Origin: Actinomycetota bacterium
Lineage (GTDB): Bacteria; Actinomycetota; Acidimicrobiia; Spongiisociales; UBA5794
Length of the DNA stretch: 39,334 bases
NCBI GenBank assembly: GCA_030123765.1
Contig: JASJXX010000014.1
Location: 1-39,334 of the forward strand
Direction of reading: 5' to 3'
A model generated the notes under the pieces. That model was given only the letters and a program-made list of their open reading frames with translations. It had not been told where the DNA came from and ran no database searches. This document shows, in pieces, positions 1,819 to 8,507 of the stretch. Within the stretch, counting starts at the first letter, position 1. Each line of letters starts with the position of its first letter. The translations under genes and the position numbers were made by a program.

Positions 1819-2997
1819 CTACACCGAATCCTCTGCGACCGGGGCGAGGAGCACCAGGTCGCTGAGGACGAGCGTGCCACAGAGCGCTGCGAGAACCACG
1901 ACTGTGGCCGGCGCCTCGAGACCACCGACGGCGCCCACCACTATTGCGAGGGCGATCGCGACCAGTCGAGACAGAACCAGCCTGGACCGCAAGCTGGCTC
2001 GGACGTCTGGTCTCGATGCGACTTCGACCCCGACGACGGCGACCAGCGCCAGCGCGACCCCGCCGACCAGGAGCCAGCGTTCGGGCGAGGTGTAGTAGTG
2101 CTGCTGATCCGATGCGATGATCGCGTGCTCCACGCCGACGCCGACCATCGCGAGGCCGACCGCCAGAGGCAGGTGGCTGTATATCCACACCGTCGGTTGC
2201 CACGTCCTCCTCTCACCCTCGCGCCGCACGACCCGACCGTCGACGTTGTCGAAGTGGACCCACCACAGGGCTGTGGCGATCGCGAGTCCTGCGACTCCAG
2301 CCGTCGTCGTGCTCCACTGCCACTCAACATGGCTCAGACCGACGACCACTGCAACGATCGTCTCGCCCAGGACGAGGATCGTGAAGAGGCCGAAACGCTC
2401 AGGGAGGTGCGAGACATCCAGCGGAACAGCGGCCTGTGCCTTGCGTACAACGAACGGCGTGGTTAGATCGATCGCGAGGGCGACACCCCACAGCCAGAAT
2501 CGCGCGGGCTCCGGTACGAAGATCGACGCGATCCAGAGCACCGCGCCGATTCCGAACCCGGTGAGGTATCCGCCGACGAGTGGCCGCGTGACGGGCACAA
2601 ATCGGTACGCACGCGCATAGAGCAACAGGAGCAGGATTCTCGCCCCGGCGTATGCAGCGGCGAAGACCACCGTTGAACCCGACGGACCCGTCGAGACACT
2701 CGCCGCCAGGAACGCTATCGCAACCATCTGCCCTCCCGCGAGGAGGCGATACACGAGATCGTCCGTGTCGTAGCGATCCGCGTAGAACGTGTGACTCGCC
2801 CACAGCCACCACACGAGGAGGAAGTATGCGGCGTAGGAGAACCAACCGGTCAGAGAAGTGTCGGCCACAAGGCGGGTACCGAGCATCGCGACGGTTGCCA
2901 CGAATACGAGGTCGTAGAAGAGTTCGAGCCAGGTAGCGCTGCGCTCCGACTCGCTCACCGTATGGAGACGAGGTGGCCGTATGGCAGCGATCTTCAC
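1819..2997 (-). CDS. LtrA-family (low temperature requirement protein A) membrane protein
   Basis: This 392-residue integral membrane protein matches the LtrA family: near its N-terminus it has WLELFYDLVFVATVAMLG, the typical family signature, followed by many hydrophobic helices separated by short charged loops. The family is named from a Listeria cold-growth mutant, but its biochemical role is unknown. The GTG start overlaps the TGA stop of the upstream metallo-hydrolase gene (GTGA), so the two are probably translated from one mRNA. Nothing in the sequence indicates a substrate. Confident for family, not for function. Confidence 0.85.
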   Translation of the reverse strand: MKIAAIRPPRLHTVSESERSATWLELFYDLVFVATVAMLGTRLVADTSLTGWFSYAAYFLLVWWLWASHTFYADRYDTDDLVYRLLAGGQMVAIAFLAASVSTGPSGSTVVFAAAYAGARILLLLLYARAYRFVPVTRPLVGGYLTGFGIGAVLWIASIFVPEPARFWLWGVALAIDLTTPFVVRKAQAAVPLDVSHLPERFGLFTILVLGETIVAVVVGLSHVEWQWSTTTAGVAGLAIATALWWVHFDNVDGRVVRREGERRTWQPTVWIYSHLPLAVGLAMVGVGVEHAIIASDQQHYYTSPERWLLVGGVALALVAVVGVEVASRPDVRASLRSRLVLSRLVAIALAIVVGAVGGLEAPATVVVLAALCGTLVLSDLVLLAPVAEDSV

Positions 2998-3791
2998 AGC
3001 GCGATCTCCATACCCGGCCGGGCTGCCTCCGTGTTCGGAAACGCCCTGCGGGCGCTTTCGACCATCTCGTCGATCGCGGTGTCGGTTCGACCGACGTCAT
3101 GGCTCGTGAGGATCAGTTCGGTCGCGCCTGCCGCTCGTGCCGCGCTCGTGGCGCCTTCGTGTGTCGAGTGTCCCCATCCTCTGTGGGCAGCGAGCTCGTC
3201 GGGCAGATACTGTGCGTCGTGTAGGAGCACGTCCGCACCACGGACCGCGTCGAGTATCCCCGAGTCGAGGTTTGTCCCGGTCTCGTGATCGGTGACGATG
3301 GCCACGCTCCGGCTCGGTCCGTCGACGCGATACCCGCACGCACCTTGCGGATGGTGGACCGCGAACGGCGTGATGGTCAGTCCCCCGATATCGACCGGCC
3401 CGTCAGAGGACGCGAACCGAATCGAGGCGACGTCAGCGATCGAGACGGGGAAGAGCGGCGGAGAGATGGCGCGTTCGAGGATCTCCGCTGGGTCATCCGG
3501 CCCCCACACGCAGACGGCACACGCGCCACTCCACAGCTCACGCATCATCGAGAGCCCCTGGATGTGGTCCCAGTGGTAGTGGGTGAGAAAGACCTCGACA
3601 GACGGGGCGAGCTTGAGGCCGAGTGCGTCGGCGTTGATGAGTCCGGTGCCTGCGTCGATGAACGCGACGGTTACACCGCCGACGACGAGAGCGAAACAGG
3701 TGGTGCTCCCTCCGTAGCGGGCGAACCGGGATCCCGACACCGGGATCGAACCCCGGGCGCCGAGCACCGTGATGTGAGCCTTCCGCATCAT
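2994..3791 (-). CDS. MBL-fold metallo-hydrolase
   Basis: This is a 265-residue metallo-beta-lactamase-fold hydrolase. It opens with a beta strand and the GARGSIPVSG / YGGSTTCF segment seen in a subfamily of small MBL proteins related to phosphodiesterase and RNase Z-like enzymes. The metal-binding motif HYHWDHIQG is at residues 71-79 (H71, H73, D75, H76). A second-shell His-Asp (LLHDAQY) and a later GHSTHEGA segment supply further ligands. The substrate is unknown; a phosphodiester is plausible by analogy. Two ATG codons stand in tandem at the start, preceded by a GGGAAGG-like ribosome site. The gene is first in a minus-strand pair with the LtrA-like gene and is divergent from the signalling cluster at 3901. 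Confidence 0.82.
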   Translation of the reverse strand: MMRKAHITVLGARGSIPVSGSRFARYGGSTTCFALVVGGVTVAFIDAGTGLINADALGLKLAPSVEVFLTHYHWDHIQGLSMMRELWSGACAVCVWGPDDPAEILERAISPPLFPVSIADVASIRFASSDGPVDIGGLTITPFAVHHPQGACGYRVDGPSRSVAIVTDHETGTNLDSGILDAVRGADVLLHDAQYLPDELAAHRGWGHSTHEGATSAARAAGATELILTSHDVGRTDTAIDEMVESARRAFPNTEAARPGMEIAL

Positions 3792-3900
3792 CCGCCTTCC
3801 CTCGACAGCGTGGTGAGGCTAGCGAACACCGGCGTCGCGAGCGACGAGCGCATTCGGTAGGCTCGCCCCTGGTGCTCGGAAGTATGGGAAGGGACTAACC
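3792..3900. promoter_or_regulatory. Divergent intergenic region with two promoter candidates
   Basis: On the minus strand a TAGCCT hexamer (3816-3821) can serve the MBL gene. On the plus strand TAGGCT (3858-3863) can serve the response-regulator fusion, leaving a leader of about 30 nt with the ribosome site GGGAAGGGA before ATG 3901. The -35 elements are weak. This is a sequence-pattern call only. Confidence 0.4.
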
Positions 3901-5553
3901 ATGAGCAGACCGGTAATTCTCGCGGTCGATGACGACCCGCAGGTGCTCGCCGCAGTCACGCGAGATCTCAGGACACGGTATGCAGAGCAGTATCAGATCA
4001 TCTCGGCGAGCTCAGGCGCTGACGGACTTGGGGTGGTGCAGGAGCTCTCAGAACGAGGACGCACGATCGCCGCGTTCCTGGTTGATCAACGCATGCCGTC
4101 AATGACTGGCACCGAGTTCCTGCTCGACGCCCAACGGACGTTCCCGGAGGCGAAACGTCTCCTCCTCACCGCGTACGCGGACACCGAGGCAGCGATCCAG
4201 GCAATCAACGACGTCGGCCTCGACCAGTACCTCATGAAGCCATGGACCCCGCCAGAGGACACGCTGTATCCGGTCCTTGACGACGCACTCGACGATTGGC
4301 AGGCGCACGCAGACAAGCCGTTCGAAGGCGTACGGGTATTCGGGACAACGTGGTCACCCTCCACTTTCGAGTTGAAGACGTTCCTCGCCCGAAACGAAGT
4401 GCCCTACCGCTTCATCGACGTAGACCGGGACGCTGAGGGTGCCCAGACGGCTGCGCGAGCAGCCCCAGACAGCGCCGAGCTGCCGGTCGTTCTCCTCGAG
4501 GACAACACCGTGTTCGTGAACCCGACCAAGTCCGTCCTCGCTGAGGCGGTTGGCATACACACCGTTCCCGAATCTGTCTTCTATGACCTGATCGTCATCG
4601 GTGGTGGACCCGCGGGGCTGGCAGCGTCGGTGTATGGGGCCTCAGAAGGGCTCTCGACGGTGATGATCGAGAGAGAGGCGCCGGGTGGCCAGGCGGGGAT
4701 GAGCAGTCGTATCGAGAACTACCTCGGGTTCCCGAAAGGGATCAGCGGAGCGGACCTTGCGCGCAGGGCCATCGCACAAGCGACAAGGCTCGGAGCGGAG
4801 CTCATCACCGCTGCCGAGGTTGACAGGGTCGATCTCGTGGGACCGCTCAAGAAGGTGTATCTCACCGACGGCTCCGAGCTCACCTGCAGAGCTCTCGTGA
4901 TCGCGTCGGGGATGACCGTACGGCGTCTCCCGATCCCCGGTTATGAGAAGTTCGAGGGCGCAGGCGTGTACTACGGCGCCGCTGCGACAGAGGCTTCGAC
5001 GTACAAAGACCGCCATGTGTACGTCATCGGTGGCGCGAATTCCGCCGGGCAGGCAGCTGTGATGTTCGCCAGGACCAGTGCGCAGGTGACGATGGTCGTT
5101 CGCTCAGGCAACCTCGGCGACAGGATGTCGGCGTACCTCGTCGACCAGATCCAATCGATCGACAACATTGACGTGCTGACATCGACCACCGTTGTCGAGG
5201 TCACCGGCACAGACAGGGTCGAGCACGTCTGCCTGAAGAACGTCGAGTCGGGCGACCTGGAGACCCGCGACGCGGCCGCCTTATTCGTCTTCGTAGGAGC
5301 GATCCCGCACTCGGACTTCCTCGAAGACGCTGTAAAGAAGAACAGAGCAGGATTCGTTTACACGGGAACCGACGTGCGCGCCTTCACCGACGCGTGGCAG
5401 CTCAAGCGCGATCCGCTCCCCCTCGAGACTTCGGTGCCCGGCGTATTCGCCGCTGGAGACGTCCGTGAGGGAGCGGTGCGGAGAGTCGCGAACGCTGTCG
5501 GAGAAGGGTCCATTGCAGTGAGCTTCGTCCACCGATATCTGGACACCGTGTGA
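3901..5553 (+). CDS. Response regulator / glutaredoxin-like / thioredoxin-reductase-like fusion
   Basis: The 550-residue protein joins three domains. Residues 5-130 are a CheY-like receiver with the acidic pocket D10-D12, phospho-acceptor D62, T90 and K113. Residues 144-220 resemble a glutaredoxin or NrdH fold, but the expected CPxC is replaced by S152-P-S-T155. Residues 228-550 form a pyridine-nucleotide oxidoreductase of thioredoxin-reductase type with the FAD motif GGGPAGLAAS (234-243), the NAD(P)H motif GGANSAGQAA (377-386) and the second FAD motif AAGDVR (517-522). The CxxC of thioredoxin reductase is replaced by YGAAATEA (358-365), and only two cysteines (329 and 444) remain in the whole protein. 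It should therefore bind FAD and NAD(P)H but cannot do classical disulfide exchange. The histidine kinase gene overlaps its stop codon and is the obvious phospho-donor. Confidence 0.9.
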   Translation: MSRPVILAVDDDPQVLAAVTRDLRTRYAEQYQIISASSGADGLGVVQELSERGRTIAAFLVDQRMPSMTGTEFLLDAQRTFPEAKRLLLTAYADTEAAIQAINDVGLDQYLMKPWTPPEDTLYPVLDDALDDWQAHADKPFEGVRVFGTTWSPSTFELKTFLARNEVPYRFIDVDRDAEGAQTAARAAPDSAELPVVLLEDNTVFVNPTKSVLAEAVGIHTVPESVFYDLIVIGGGPAGLAASVYGASEGLSTVMIEREAPGGQAGMSSRIENYLGFPKGISGADLARRAIAQATRLGAELITAAEVDRVDLVGPLKKVYLTDGSELTCRALVIASGMTVRRLPIPGYEKFEGAGVYYGAAATEASTYKDRHVYVIGGANSAGQAAVMFARTSAQVTMVVRSGNLGDRMSAYLVDQIQSIDNIDVLTSTTVVEVTGTDRVEHVCLKNVESGDLETRDAAALFVFVGAIPHSDFLEDAVKKNRAGFVYTGTDVRAFTDAWQLKRDPLPLETSVPGVFAAGDVREGAVRRVANAVGEGSIAVSFVHRYLDTV

Positions 5554-6905
5554 CGGACTTCGACCTCGCCTCCGTCCCTCTCTTCTCGAAACTACCTGAG
5601 AAGGACCTCGCACGGCTGAGCGAGGGTGTCACCGATGTCTCCCTCGAGAGAGGCGAGGCGCTCTTCGCCGAGGGCGACGAAGCAGACATGGCCTATGTGA
5701 TCACCGAGGGTGAACTCGAGATTCTCAAGGAGTCTGCGGGTCGGAGCGTACGCATCGCAGTCTCTCAACCCGGCGACGTCGTAGGCGAGATGGCGATGCT
5801 CACAGGCGAAGCGCGCAACGCAGGCGCACGGGCGATCACAGCGGTCCGGCTCATCGCCATCCCGCGGGCATGCCTTGATGATGTGCTCTCGACGAGTGTC
5901 GACGCGAACAGAGCGCTCTTCGCTGTCTTCATCACACGGTGGCGCGAACAGGAGTCCCGGGTGCGGCAGTCCGAGCGGATGGCGCAGATCGGCGTCCTAA
6001 CTGCCGGACTCGCCCACGAGATGAACAACCCTGCAGCCGCCGTCACGAGCGGGTCACAAGGGTTGTCACAGGGTCTTGAGAACCTCACCGACCTCGCGCT
6101 GCGGCTGCCGCACGACGTGGTTCTGCCGTCCCCATCACACGCGGGACAGCCACTCTCGTCGATGCGGCGAGCAGACGTAGAGGAAGCGGTTGCTCAGACG
6201 CTTCAGACGATGGGCGTCTCGGACGCATGGAGATTGGCATCAGATCTCGCAGGCTCTGGATTCACGGCGGGAGACCTCAGCGGAGTCGACGGAGATCACG
6301 CGGTAGACGTCATCTCGTTCGTTGCGGCCACAGCGAGCCTGAGGTCACTGCTCGCGGAGGTGACTGAGGGGTCAAGAAGGCTCTCCGAACTCGTAGCAGC
6401 GCTCAAATCGTACTCCTTCCTCGACCAGGCGCCCGTCCAGCAGGTGAACCTCGCCCAGGGTATCGAGGACACACTTCTGATACTGCGCTCCAAGACCAGG
6501 GGGATCGCCATCACCACCGAGTACGCAGATGACCTGCCTGCCATCGTTGCCTATGGCAGCCAGCTCAACCAGGTGTGGACGAACCTCATCGACAACGCGG
6601 TGGACGCTCTCCACGACGCGGGCCTCGCCGATGGTCAGATCACGATCCGGGCCTTCCCTCAGGGCGAGAACGTCGTCATCGAGATCGAGAACGAGGGCCC
6701 ACCGATCCCGGAAGAAGTGATCGACCGGATATTCGAAGCGTTCTACACGACGAAGGAACCCGGGCGGGGTACGGGTCTGGGCCTCGACACCGCGTACCGC
6801 ATCGTGGTAACCCAGCATCGAGGATCGCTGACCGTCTCGTCAGGCCAGGACGCGACAGTCTTCCGCGTGACGCTGCCGACCACCCAGGCGGCCCTACCCG
6901 ACTGA
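5550..6905 (+). CDS. Cyclic-nucleotide-binding-domain histidine kinase
   Basis: This 451-residue soluble sensor kinase starts with GTG overlapping the previous stop (GTGA). Residues 5-125 form a cNMP-binding/Crp-like domain (LFSKLPEKDL, then ERGEALFAEGDEAD and GDVVGEMAML). The dimerisation and phospho-acceptor segment has H156 in LAHEMNNPAAAV. The HATPase_c domain carries the N box NLIDNAVDAL (345-354) and the G box GRGTGLGLD (405-413), then ends without a receiver. There is no membrane segment, so the signal is cytoplasmic, presumably a nucleotide or another ligand bound by the Crp-like domain. The neighbouring receiver fusion is the likely partner. The ligand cannot be deduced from the sequence. 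Confidence 0.9.
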   Translation: MTDFDLASVPLFSKLPEKDLARLSEGVTDVSLERGEALFAEGDEADMAYVITEGELEILKESAGRSVRIAVSQPGDVVGEMAMLTGEARNAGARAITAVRLIAIPRACLDDVLSTSVDANRALFAVFITRWREQESRVRQSERMAQIGVLTAGLAHEMNNPAAAVTSGSQGLSQGLENLTDLALRLPHDVVLPSPSHAGQPLSSMRRADVEEAVAQTLQTMGVSDAWRLASDLAGSGFTAGDLSGVDGDHAVDVISFVAATASLRSLLAEVTEGSRRLSELVAALKSYSFLDQAPVQQVNLAQGIEDTLLILRSKTRGIAITTEYADDLPAIVAYGSQLNQVWTNLIDNAVDALHDAGLADGQITIRAFPQGENVVIEIENEGPPIPEEVIDRIFEAFYTTKEPGRGTGLGLDTAYRIVVTQHRGSLTVSSGQDATVFRVTLPTTQAALPD

Positions 6906-6924
6906 ACTACCAGAGGAGAGAGAC

Positions 6925-7194
6925 ATGCCCGCACCATGTTCGCATCTCGAGACCGTCCCCCTCGCCTCAATGCCCGAAGGCGGGTGCGCAGAGTGCCTCG
7001 CCGTCGGCGACACGTGGGTGCACCTGCGGTTCTGCGTCATGTGCGGGCAGACGGGATGCTGCGACTCGTCGAAGAACAGACACGCTCGAAAGCACTGGAA
7101 AGATCACGGTCACGGCGTCGTCCGATCCAAGGAACCCGGGGAGTACTGGGCGTACTGCTATCAAGATGACGAAATAATCAGTACCCGGGGATGA
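6925..7194 (+). CDS. UBP-type zinc finger protein
   Basis: This 89-residue protein is almost entirely a UBP (ubiquitin-hydrolase-type) zinc finger. Candidate metal ligands are C5, H7, C21, C24, C37, C40, C45, C46, H53, H57, H61 and H63, spaced as in the bacterial stand-alone members. Bacteria have no ubiquitin in the usual sense; in the eukaryotic domain the fold reads a free C-terminal Gly-Gly tail. The gene follows the histidine kinase by 19 nt and has a GAGGAGAG ribosome site, so it belongs to the same operon. Its role as a partner or regulator of the receiver fusion or kinase is inference from position. Confidence 0.85.
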   Translation: MPAPCSHLETVPLASMPEGGCAECLAVGDTWVHLRFCVMCGQTGCCDSSKNRHARKHWKDHGHGVVRSKEPGEYWAYCYQDDEIISTRG

Positions 7195-7214
7195 TTTGTG
7201 GCATGAACGTCGGT

Positions 7215-7220
7215 TACGAT
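7215..7220 (+). promoter_or_regulatory. -10 element of the CoA-ligase gene, leaderless type
   Basis: TACGAT ends 6 nt before ATG 7227, which supports that codon as start and a leaderless mRNA. No good -35 is visible. An alternative start at ATG 7191 overlaps the zinc-finger stop (ATGA) and would translate through this hexamer. Confidence 0.45.
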
Positions 7221-7226
7221 CGGCGC

Positions 7227-8507
7227 ATGCCAGGCCTTCACCCCATCGAATCCGCGGATGTCGCTGAACTACGTGCGCTCCAGCTTGAACGCCTCCAGTG
7301 GTCGCTCTTGCACGCGTATGACAACGTCGCGCACTACCGCGACGCGTTCGACGAAGCCGGCTCTGCGCCACGAGATTGCCGCTCACTCAAGAATCTGGAA
7401 CGCTTCCCCTTCCTCCTCAAGGAACACCACAGAGCGAACTACCCGCTCGGGCTCCTCGCCGTGCCCAGGGACCAGGTCATCCGGATCCACGCCTCGTCAG
7501 GGACGACAGGGGTACCGACCGTCGTCGCCTACACCCGCAACGACATCGACATGTGGGCCGACGTCATGGCCCGCTCCATCTACGCTGCCGGCGGCCGCCC
7601 CGGTGACATCGCCCACATTGCGTACGGATACGGCCTCTTCACCGGAGGACTGGGAGCGCACTACGGCGCGGAGCGCCTCGGATGCACCGTCGTCCCCATG
7701 TCCGGCGGCCAGACAGAGAAGCAGGTCACGCTGATCAACGACCTCAAGCCGCGGATCATCCTCGTCACACCGTCGTACTGTCTGAGCCTCATCGACGAGA
7801 TGGAGCGGCAGGGGCTCGACCCGGCCGCGACCTCCCTCGAGATCGGGATCTTCGGCGCCGAGCCCTGGTCGAACGAGATGCGACGTCAGATAGAGGAACG
7901 CCTCGGTATCGATGCCGTCGACATCTACGGCATCTCTGAGGTCATCGGTCCAGGCGTCGCCCAGGAGTGCGTCACAACCAAGGATGGGCTCACGGTGTGG
8001 GAGGACCACTTCTACCCCGAGATCATCGACCCGGACACGGGTGAGGTCCTCCCCGACGGCGAAGAAGGGGAACTCGTTCTCACCTCCCTCACCAAGGAGG
8101 CTCTGCCGGTCATCCGGTACCGCACCGGGGACCTCACCCGACTCCTCCCGCCGACGGCGCGCACCATGCGACGCATCGCCCGCATCAAGGGCCGCACCGA
8201 CGACATGCTCATCATCCGTGGCGTCAATGTCTACCCGAGCCAGATCGAGGTCCAGATCCTCAAAGTCGCGGGCCTCACGCCCCACTACCAGATCGAGGTC
8301 ATCCAGAGAGGGAACGCCAAGGGCCTCATCGTCCATGTCGAATCGAACGAGGCGCTCGACCCTGCCACGCGCCGGGACCTTGAAACGGTCGCCGCGAGGC
8401 ACATCAAGGACAACATCGGCATCACGGTGGAGGTGCGGGTCTCCGCGCCGGGAACCGTGGTGCGCTCAACCGGCAAGGCAGAGCGAGTCATCGACCGGAC
8501 CTGCTGA
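7227..8507 (+). CDS. Phenylacetate-CoA ligase-like AMP-forming enzyme
   Basis: This 426-residue member of the ANL adenylating superfamily resembles PaaK, which activates aryl acids with ATP to acyl-AMP and then the CoA thioester. Visible motifs are the P-loop-like SSGTTGVPT (90-98), the PaaK-type YGYGLFTGGLGAHYG, IFGAEPWSNEMR, the YGISEVIGPGV substrate segment, the RTGDLT hinge and GRTDDMLIIRGVNVYPSQIE of the C-terminal subdomain. Length and order match the family. No other phenylacetate pathway genes are nearby, so the substrate is open; a PaaK-like activator of another aryl or acyl acid is equally possible. ATG 7227 is chosen from the leaderless promoter geometry; ATG 7191 adds 12 residues and is possible by coupling to the zinc-finger gene. 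Confidence 0.88.
   Translation: MPGLHPIESADVAELRALQLERLQWSLLHAYDNVAHYRDAFDEAGSAPRDCRSLKNLERFPFLLKEHHRANYPLGLLAVPRDQVIRIHASSGTTGVPTVVAYTRNDIDMWADVMARSIYAAGGRPGDIAHIAYGYGLFTGGLGAHYGAERLGCTVVPMSGGQTEKQVTLINDLKPRIILVTPSYCLSLIDEMERQGLDPAATSLEIGIFGAEPWSNEMRRQIEERLGIDAVDIYGISEVIGPGVAQECVTTKDGLTVWEDHFYPEIIDPDTGEVLPDGEEGELVLTSLTKEALPVIRYRTGDLTRLLPPTARTMRRIARIKGRTDDMLIIRGVNVYPSQIEVQILKVAGLTPHYQIEVIQRGNAKGLIVHVESNEALDPATRRDLETVAARHIKDNIGITVEVRVSAPGTVVRSTGKAERVIDRTC

Follow-up and report, generated by a model that had tools for sequence, protein, structure and literature searches.

The closest described counterpart of the system reported here is ATII-TrxR, a Crp/cyclic nucleotide (cNMP)-domain protein related to thioredoxin reductase (TrxR). 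Passages of PMC6544261 report that it binds flavin adenine dinucleotide (FAD), uses both NADPH and NADH, and reduces 5,5'-dithiobis(2-nitrobenzoic acid) (DTNB) and thioredoxin. The present study concerns a three-gene locus in a 39,334-nucleotide stretch of Actinomycetota DNA (positions 1 to 39,334 of contig JASJXX010000014.1, assembly GCA_030123765.1; hereafter the window), which corresponds to contig C37 in a genome of 2.2 Mb. The locus encodes a fusion of a receiver, a glutaredoxin (Grx)-fold domain and a TrxR-like flavoprotein module, followed by a cNMP-domain histidine kinase and a small zf-UBP zinc-finger protein. It represents a widespread and apparently unstudied bacterial signaling module, and the sequence evidence makes it about an even bet that this module is a two-component system with an NAD(P)H-dependent flavoprotein output, gated by phosphorylation and not operating as a dithiol reductase. 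The parts are of known kinds, but their combination, its wide conservation and the link to zf-UBP are not described in the open-licence literature, where text searches returned ATII-TrxR as the sole characterized relative.

The three open reading frames (ORFs) lie head to tail on the + strand and are tightly packed: 3901-5553 (fusion, 550 residues), 5550-6905 (kinase, 451 residues) and 6925-7194 (zinc finger, 89 residues). The first two share 4 nt (5550-5553), and the third begins 19 nt past the kinase stop, preceded by a ribosome-binding-site-like aggagag. ORF, Pfam and NCBIfam analyses confirm the gene and domain order given in the initial annotation; a promoter and terminator scan found none. 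The nearest named relatives of the fusion share 82% identity (an 'Actinobacteria bacterium' metagenome-assembled genome, MAG) and 61% (an Acidimicrobiia MAG). Frame error and assembly artifact were both rejected, since an 82%-identical homolog is present in an independent MAG (L005) and there are no internal stops.

Both redox motifs of the fusion have lost their cysteines. In the Grx-fold domain (residues ~138-220; 4312..4560, + strand), the CPxC motif is replaced by S152-P153-S154-T155, just as first annotated, and the cis-Pro position is kept (P195). Across 95 homologs, the first-cysteine position is Ser in 79 and Cys in none. The domain matches TIGR02200 (mycoredoxin) at 4.9e-7, under that family's cut-off; modeled in isolation with AlphaFold2 (AF2; pLDDT 85), it shows a beta-alpha-beta-alpha-beta-beta-alpha order, and its best PDB matches are the thioredoxin-like BC3987 and glutaredoxins (Z 11-13). 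The AF2 model of the whole fusion, built from six sequences, reached a pLDDT of only 63.5 with a poor TrxR part, so no geometric claims are drawn from it. The TrxR-like module (residues 228-550; 4582..5553, + strand) is supported by Pyr_redox_2 (228-536, 7.8e-38), by TIGR01292 (1.4e-72) and by the 95-homolog alignment. TIGR01292 is the top family for the fusion, but the score of 244 bits lies below the cut-off of 343, and the protein is therefore not filed as a TrxR. The initial annotation had read AAAT in place of the CxxC motif: the CxxC is indeed absent, while the placement was one residue off, since CATC aligns with G359-A360-A361-A362 or, with one insertion, ends at T363. This offset leaves the conclusion unchanged, because the whole fusion contains only C329 and C444, neither of which is conserved. 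In the family the position reads Y-G/A-A/S-x-x-T/S-E (GAAAT, 359-363, in the window); the Grx-TrxR core contains a CxxC in none of the 95 homologs and lacks cysteine altogether in 13. A search of the same homologs for a hidden CxxC or conserved cysteine pair found none, the best column (368) being Cys in about half and Tyr in the window. Since the loss is family-wide, TrxR-type dithiol-disulfide chemistry is very unlikely, and the alignment excludes the classical CxxC-based thioredoxin reductase mechanism for the window fusion. A canonical TrxB (CATC) is encoded elsewhere in the window genome, adjoined by a thioredoxin gene on contig C58.

The cofactor sites, on the other hand, are retained. 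As first annotated, the FAD motif (GGGPAG at 234) and the NAD(P)H motif (GGANSAG at 377) are intact, and the near-invariant residues of the family include G234xG236PxG239, G262-G263-Q264-A265, N380-S381-A382-G383-Q384 and G519-D520.

Of 296 genomes sampled from the phylum, 69 contain fusion homologs. The tree and architecture of the family define three groups. Class A has an intact receiver and ~50% identity or more over the full length, and occurs in Actinomycetota, Chloroflexi, Deinococcus, cyanobacteria and Burkholderiales. Class B has a degenerate receiver, mostly lacking the full set of phosphorylation residues, and is monophyletic (100/96). In class C, also monophyletic (100/97) and including a Cupriavidus metallidurans protein, a cNMP-type domain replaces the receiver (and the kinase) and is fused straight to the Grx-TrxR module. 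This arrangement, with a sensor domain sitting directly on the flavoprotein, makes the N-terminal slot look like an input and the flavoprotein like an output. A survey of genomes for co-occurrence had been suggested as a check; the three-gene cluster does recur elsewhere.

The window receiver (3901..4290, + strand; Pfam Response_reg 6-118, 1.1e-13) keeps the full phosphorylation set, D62, T90, K113 and the acidic pair D10-D11. The kinase (5550..6905, + strand) combines cNMP_binding (30-115, 2.8e-20) with HATPase_c (338-445, 3.8e-22), and motif alignment identifies all its boxes: the H-box LAHEMNN with H156, and NAVDAL, IENEGP and GTGLGL (N, G1 and G2). Kinase homology starts within 150 nt 3' of the fusion in 47 of 51 class A loci; of the other four, one has the kinase upstream, two are cut by contig ends and one has no kinase. 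Conversely, of the 49 full-length kinases of this family in the 296 genomes, 45 have a fusion within 5 kb; two of the remaining four begin at the edge of a contig. Receiver integrity follows the kinase closely: intact and non-intact receivers stand at 49:1 in loci with a kinase and 3:40 in loci without (Fisher p=1.4e-21), the single kinase-bearing exception having a truncated receiver. These counts provide strong evidence that kinase and receiver form an evolutionary and working pair, although phosphotransfer from H156 to D62 is a prediction only.

The direction of control could in principle be reversed, with the flavin/NAD(P)H state of the fusion controlling the receiver, which would serve the kinase as phosphate sink or phosphatase. 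In some loci, a single fusion is indeed followed by two or three kinases in tandem, which would suit such a role. However, no second response regulator, DNA-binding or other, recurs across the clusters examined, and the class C sensor placed directly on the flavoprotein fits the flavoprotein as output. This alternative is considered improbable.

The initial annotation proposed the cyclic-nucleotide-type domain as the input; a cyclic nucleotide as the signal is plausible rather than established. The phosphate-binding cassette of the window kinase is GEMAMLTGEARNAGA, with Gly-Glu and Arg present. The clade nearest the window keeps a canonical cassette, but in most other kinases of the family, e.g. 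in Streptomyces, it has degenerated, so the ligand probably differs among kinases. Judged by its cassette, the ligand in the window's clade is plausibly a cyclic nucleotide, and the window genome encodes a class III cyclase, in favor of the two-component reading. Separately, a DAC (diadenylate-cyclase-type) gene was observed ~3-4 kb downstream of the fusion in L051, L053, L054, L056 and L059 (e.g. L059:1094-1807:-); most of these loci have two or three tandem cNMP-kinases, and three of the genomes have zf-UBP at a distance of ~7 kb.

The third gene (6925..7194, + strand) encodes a zf-UBP domain (PF02148, 43.9 bits against a gathering threshold of 22.7; 2.9e-11) with the Cys/His ligand set. The conserved residues are C21, C24, C37, C40, C45, C46, H53, H57 and H63, and ligand columns are more than 90% conserved in 53 relatives. 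Its best solved relative is 2ida (9.5e-21), annotated as a hypothetical protein. In the 296 genomes, zf-UBP occurs in 68 and both zf-UBP and the fusion in 48 (p=6e-23). Of 91 zf-UBP genes, 22 have a fusion within 12 kb, where 0.65 would be expected, and 19 have one within 1.6 kb, against an expectation of 0.12; genomes are counted here as independent despite shared ancestry, so the significance is overstated. In L049 (4328-6085), the zinc finger forms the C-terminal part of the kinase in a single fused protein. It also accompanies the kinase-free class C, which suggests the flavoprotein or its pathway, rather than the kinase alone, as the likelier common partner. The link between zinc finger and module noted in the initial annotation is strong through adjacency, the kinase fusion and class C co-occurrence. 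In one ORF (L140:1-1695), a Na+/H+ exchanger carries a C-terminal zf-UBP domain, indicating a reusable module.

In eukaryotes, zf-UBP folds are peptide or protein readers (USP5, HDAC6); to our knowledge, bacteria lack ubiquitin itself, and open-licence text searches found no function for bacterial zf-UBP. This reader function lends some support to another view of the locus, in which the Grx-TrxR module performs no catalysis and serves as a redox or nucleotide sensor or scaffold, its FAD/NAD(P)H ligand state, together with receiver phosphorylation, steering the binding of a partner such as zf-UBP. Catalytic cysteines lost and cofactor sites kept are what a binding-only module would show. Yet the FAD and NAD(P)H domains are conserved across phyla at ~50% identity, including near the flavin, which suggests turnover, and ATII-TrxR is reported to oxidize NAD(P)H (PMC6544261). 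We regard a purely binding role as unlikely, though as the least unlikely of the alternatives.

A further objection is that the fusion is an ordinary misannotated thioredoxin reductase with chance neighbors. TIGR01292 is indeed the top family, and relatives appear at NCBI under the names FAD-dependent oxidoreductase or thioredoxin-disulfide reductase. The shortfall against the TIGR01292 cut-off and the missing CxxC speak against it, and a chance neighborhood is excluded by the co-occurrence and adjacency statistics, which refute the gene-association part. It is hardly credible as an explanation.

A more serious question is posed by class C and its characterized member. The C. metallidurans CH34 homolog in this class shows YYWASPVEAKLC and has no CxxC; it is possibly not the exact protein cited in PMC6544261. 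Cysteines 206, 223 and 376 named in that paper match the CH34 protein at a constant offset, whereas 467 does not, and we infer from this that ATII-TrxR belongs to the cysteine-less Grx-TrxR family. On plasmids of Rhodococcus and Nocardia, class C genes lie in a heat-stress type island of the order dnaK-grpE-dnaJ-cbpM-clpB-trxA-zfUBP-cNMP-TrxR, of which a Streptomyces plasmid locus has the dnaJ to TrxR part (the three loci being L159:1-7674, L160:1-8116 and L045:1-6302). One trxA from these operons, the one inspected, has WCAPC. In Rhodococcus, trxA resembles Trx2 and has two additional CxxC motifs, paired at the N terminus. The operon points to protein-stress physiology for class C and keeps a functional link to thioredoxin open.

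The fusion might accordingly be a thioredoxin reductase of unusual chemistry, its reduced flavin, unaided by any CxxC in the fusion, acting straight on a dedicated thioredoxin's disulfide. The reported reduction of DTNB and thioredoxin by ATII-TrxR favors this, as do the match of three of four named cysteine positions to a class C relative without CxxC (PMC6544261) and the presence of trxA in one operon with zf-UBP and the class C protein on the Rhodococcus, Nocardia and Streptomyces plasmids. Against it stand the lack of any conserved cysteine in the family, down to none in the core of 13 homologs, the absence of a thioredoxin gene among the immediate window neighbors, and the canonical TrxB mapped beside thioredoxin in the same genome. 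Moreover, the passages of PMC6544261 at hand do not discuss the missing CxxC, so that carry-over of host TrxR or non-specific, flavin-driven DTNB reduction may account for the published activity. The ATII-TrxR activity reflects either unusual chemistry or an assay that calls for repetition with a host lacking trxB. Extension of such an activity to the window fusion seems doubtful, somewhat more so than the binding-only role above. The earlier statement that the fusion is not a disulfide reductase therefore stands as regards the absent CxxC and the family-wide loss of redox cysteines, but is qualified by the thioredoxin reduction reported for this sister class.

Under the two-component reading, the cNMP-type domain of the kinase would sense a small molecule (in the window's clade, plausibly a cyclic nucleotide), and the kinase would autophosphorylate at H156 and pass the phosphate to D62. 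The receiver, linked through the cysteine-less Grx-fold domain, would then reshape the TrxR-like module, perhaps by rotating its NAD(P)H domain, and this change would gate the passage of hydride from NAD(P)H to FAD. As there is no dithiol, flavin electrons would go directly to an acceptor other than an internal disulfide, such as a partner protein, a quinone or oxygen, and the zf-UBP protein may be an accessory or adaptor of this flavoprotein branch. Several observations weigh against this scheme. The strongest against a pure non-disulfide-reductase reading is the published thioredoxin reduction by ATII-TrxR (PMC6544261). In addition, homologs that have no intact receiver or no kinase are common (class B), so that the flavoprotein can do without phospho-control; most kinases of the family have a degenerate cNMP pocket; zf-UBP is not near most fusions and also sits on a Na+/H+ antiporter, and is thus not exclusive to the module; and the genome counts are uncorrected for shared ancestry.

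Other neighbors vary among loci. Directly 3' of the window zinc finger lies a PaaK-type phenylacetate-CoA ligase (7191-8507, + strand; TIGR02155 above cut-off), whose ORF start overlaps the zinc finger; an ATG near 7228 is the likelier start, and this neighbor does not recur. LtrA (low temperature requirement A) is found near the fusion in three distant genomes (window 1819-2997, - strand; L039 11337-12566; L043 9154-10329). Streptomyces-type class A loci (L041, L071, L076, L078, L079, L081) share upstream DUF4032/Kdo-kinase-like genes, with universal stress protein (USP) and MBL genes also annotated in L041. Near class B/C fusions, L098 encodes a large protein (3195-5837) with cyclase, NB-ARC and TPR domains (checked against Pfam for L098 alone), relatives of which lie near L104, L110, L111, L121 and L126. 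No fourth core partner was accepted, LtrA being confined to three loci and PaaK, MBL, USP, DUF4032 and MFS being clade-specific or not recurrent.

If the two-component reading holds, a common family currently labeled thioredoxin reductase or FAD-dependent oxidoreductase serves as the flavoprotein output of two-component signaling, such a system acts directly on NAD(P)H electron flow, and bacterial zf-UBP proteins gain a context. The published thioredoxin reductase activity of a relative apparently without a catalytic disulfide would then be either doubtful or remarkable. We tentatively extend this to a distinct class of signal output, in which cysteine-less Grx-TrxR flavoproteins would be NAD(P)H redox switches driven by a kinase-receiver pair or a directly fused cNMP-type domain, and zf-UBP would be their dedicated adaptor or would accept their electrons; as far as the open-licence literature shows, this would be the first defined role of a bacterial zf-UBP. 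The use that the flavoprotein makes of its electrons, like each of the main points, is testable with a few purified proteins.

Compared with known systems, the fusion shares the FAD and NADPH domains of low-Mr thioredoxin reductase (E. coli TrxB, 1trb), with 33% identity over the module to the best solved relative, 7jyp; unlike TrxB, it has no CxxC, carries extra receiver and Grx-fold domains, and scores below the TIGR01292 cut-off. AhpF likewise has a thioredoxin-fold domain N-terminal to a TrxR module, and the fusion matches TIGR03140 at 1.5e-48. AhpF depends on CxxC motifs in both parts, whereas the fusion has none in either. TrxR-type ferredoxin-NADP reductases (3lzw, 3ab1, 8c16), weaker sequence matches, are TrxR-like flavoproteins that work without CxxC; unlike the fusion, they have no receiver and pass electrons to ferredoxin or flavodoxin, and no ferredoxin gene was seen among the recurring neighbors examined. 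For the zinc finger, the zf-UBP domain is shared with 2ida, a bacterial protein of unknown function, and with eukaryotic HDAC6/USP proteins. ATII-TrxR and its C. metallidurans relative resemble the fusion in a Grx-TrxR core without CxxC, judged via the sequenced relative, and in the reported FAD and NAD(P)H use. ATII-TrxR differs in its N-terminal cNMP domain in place of a receiver, its lack of a kinase and its claimed thioredoxin reductase activity (PMC6544261).

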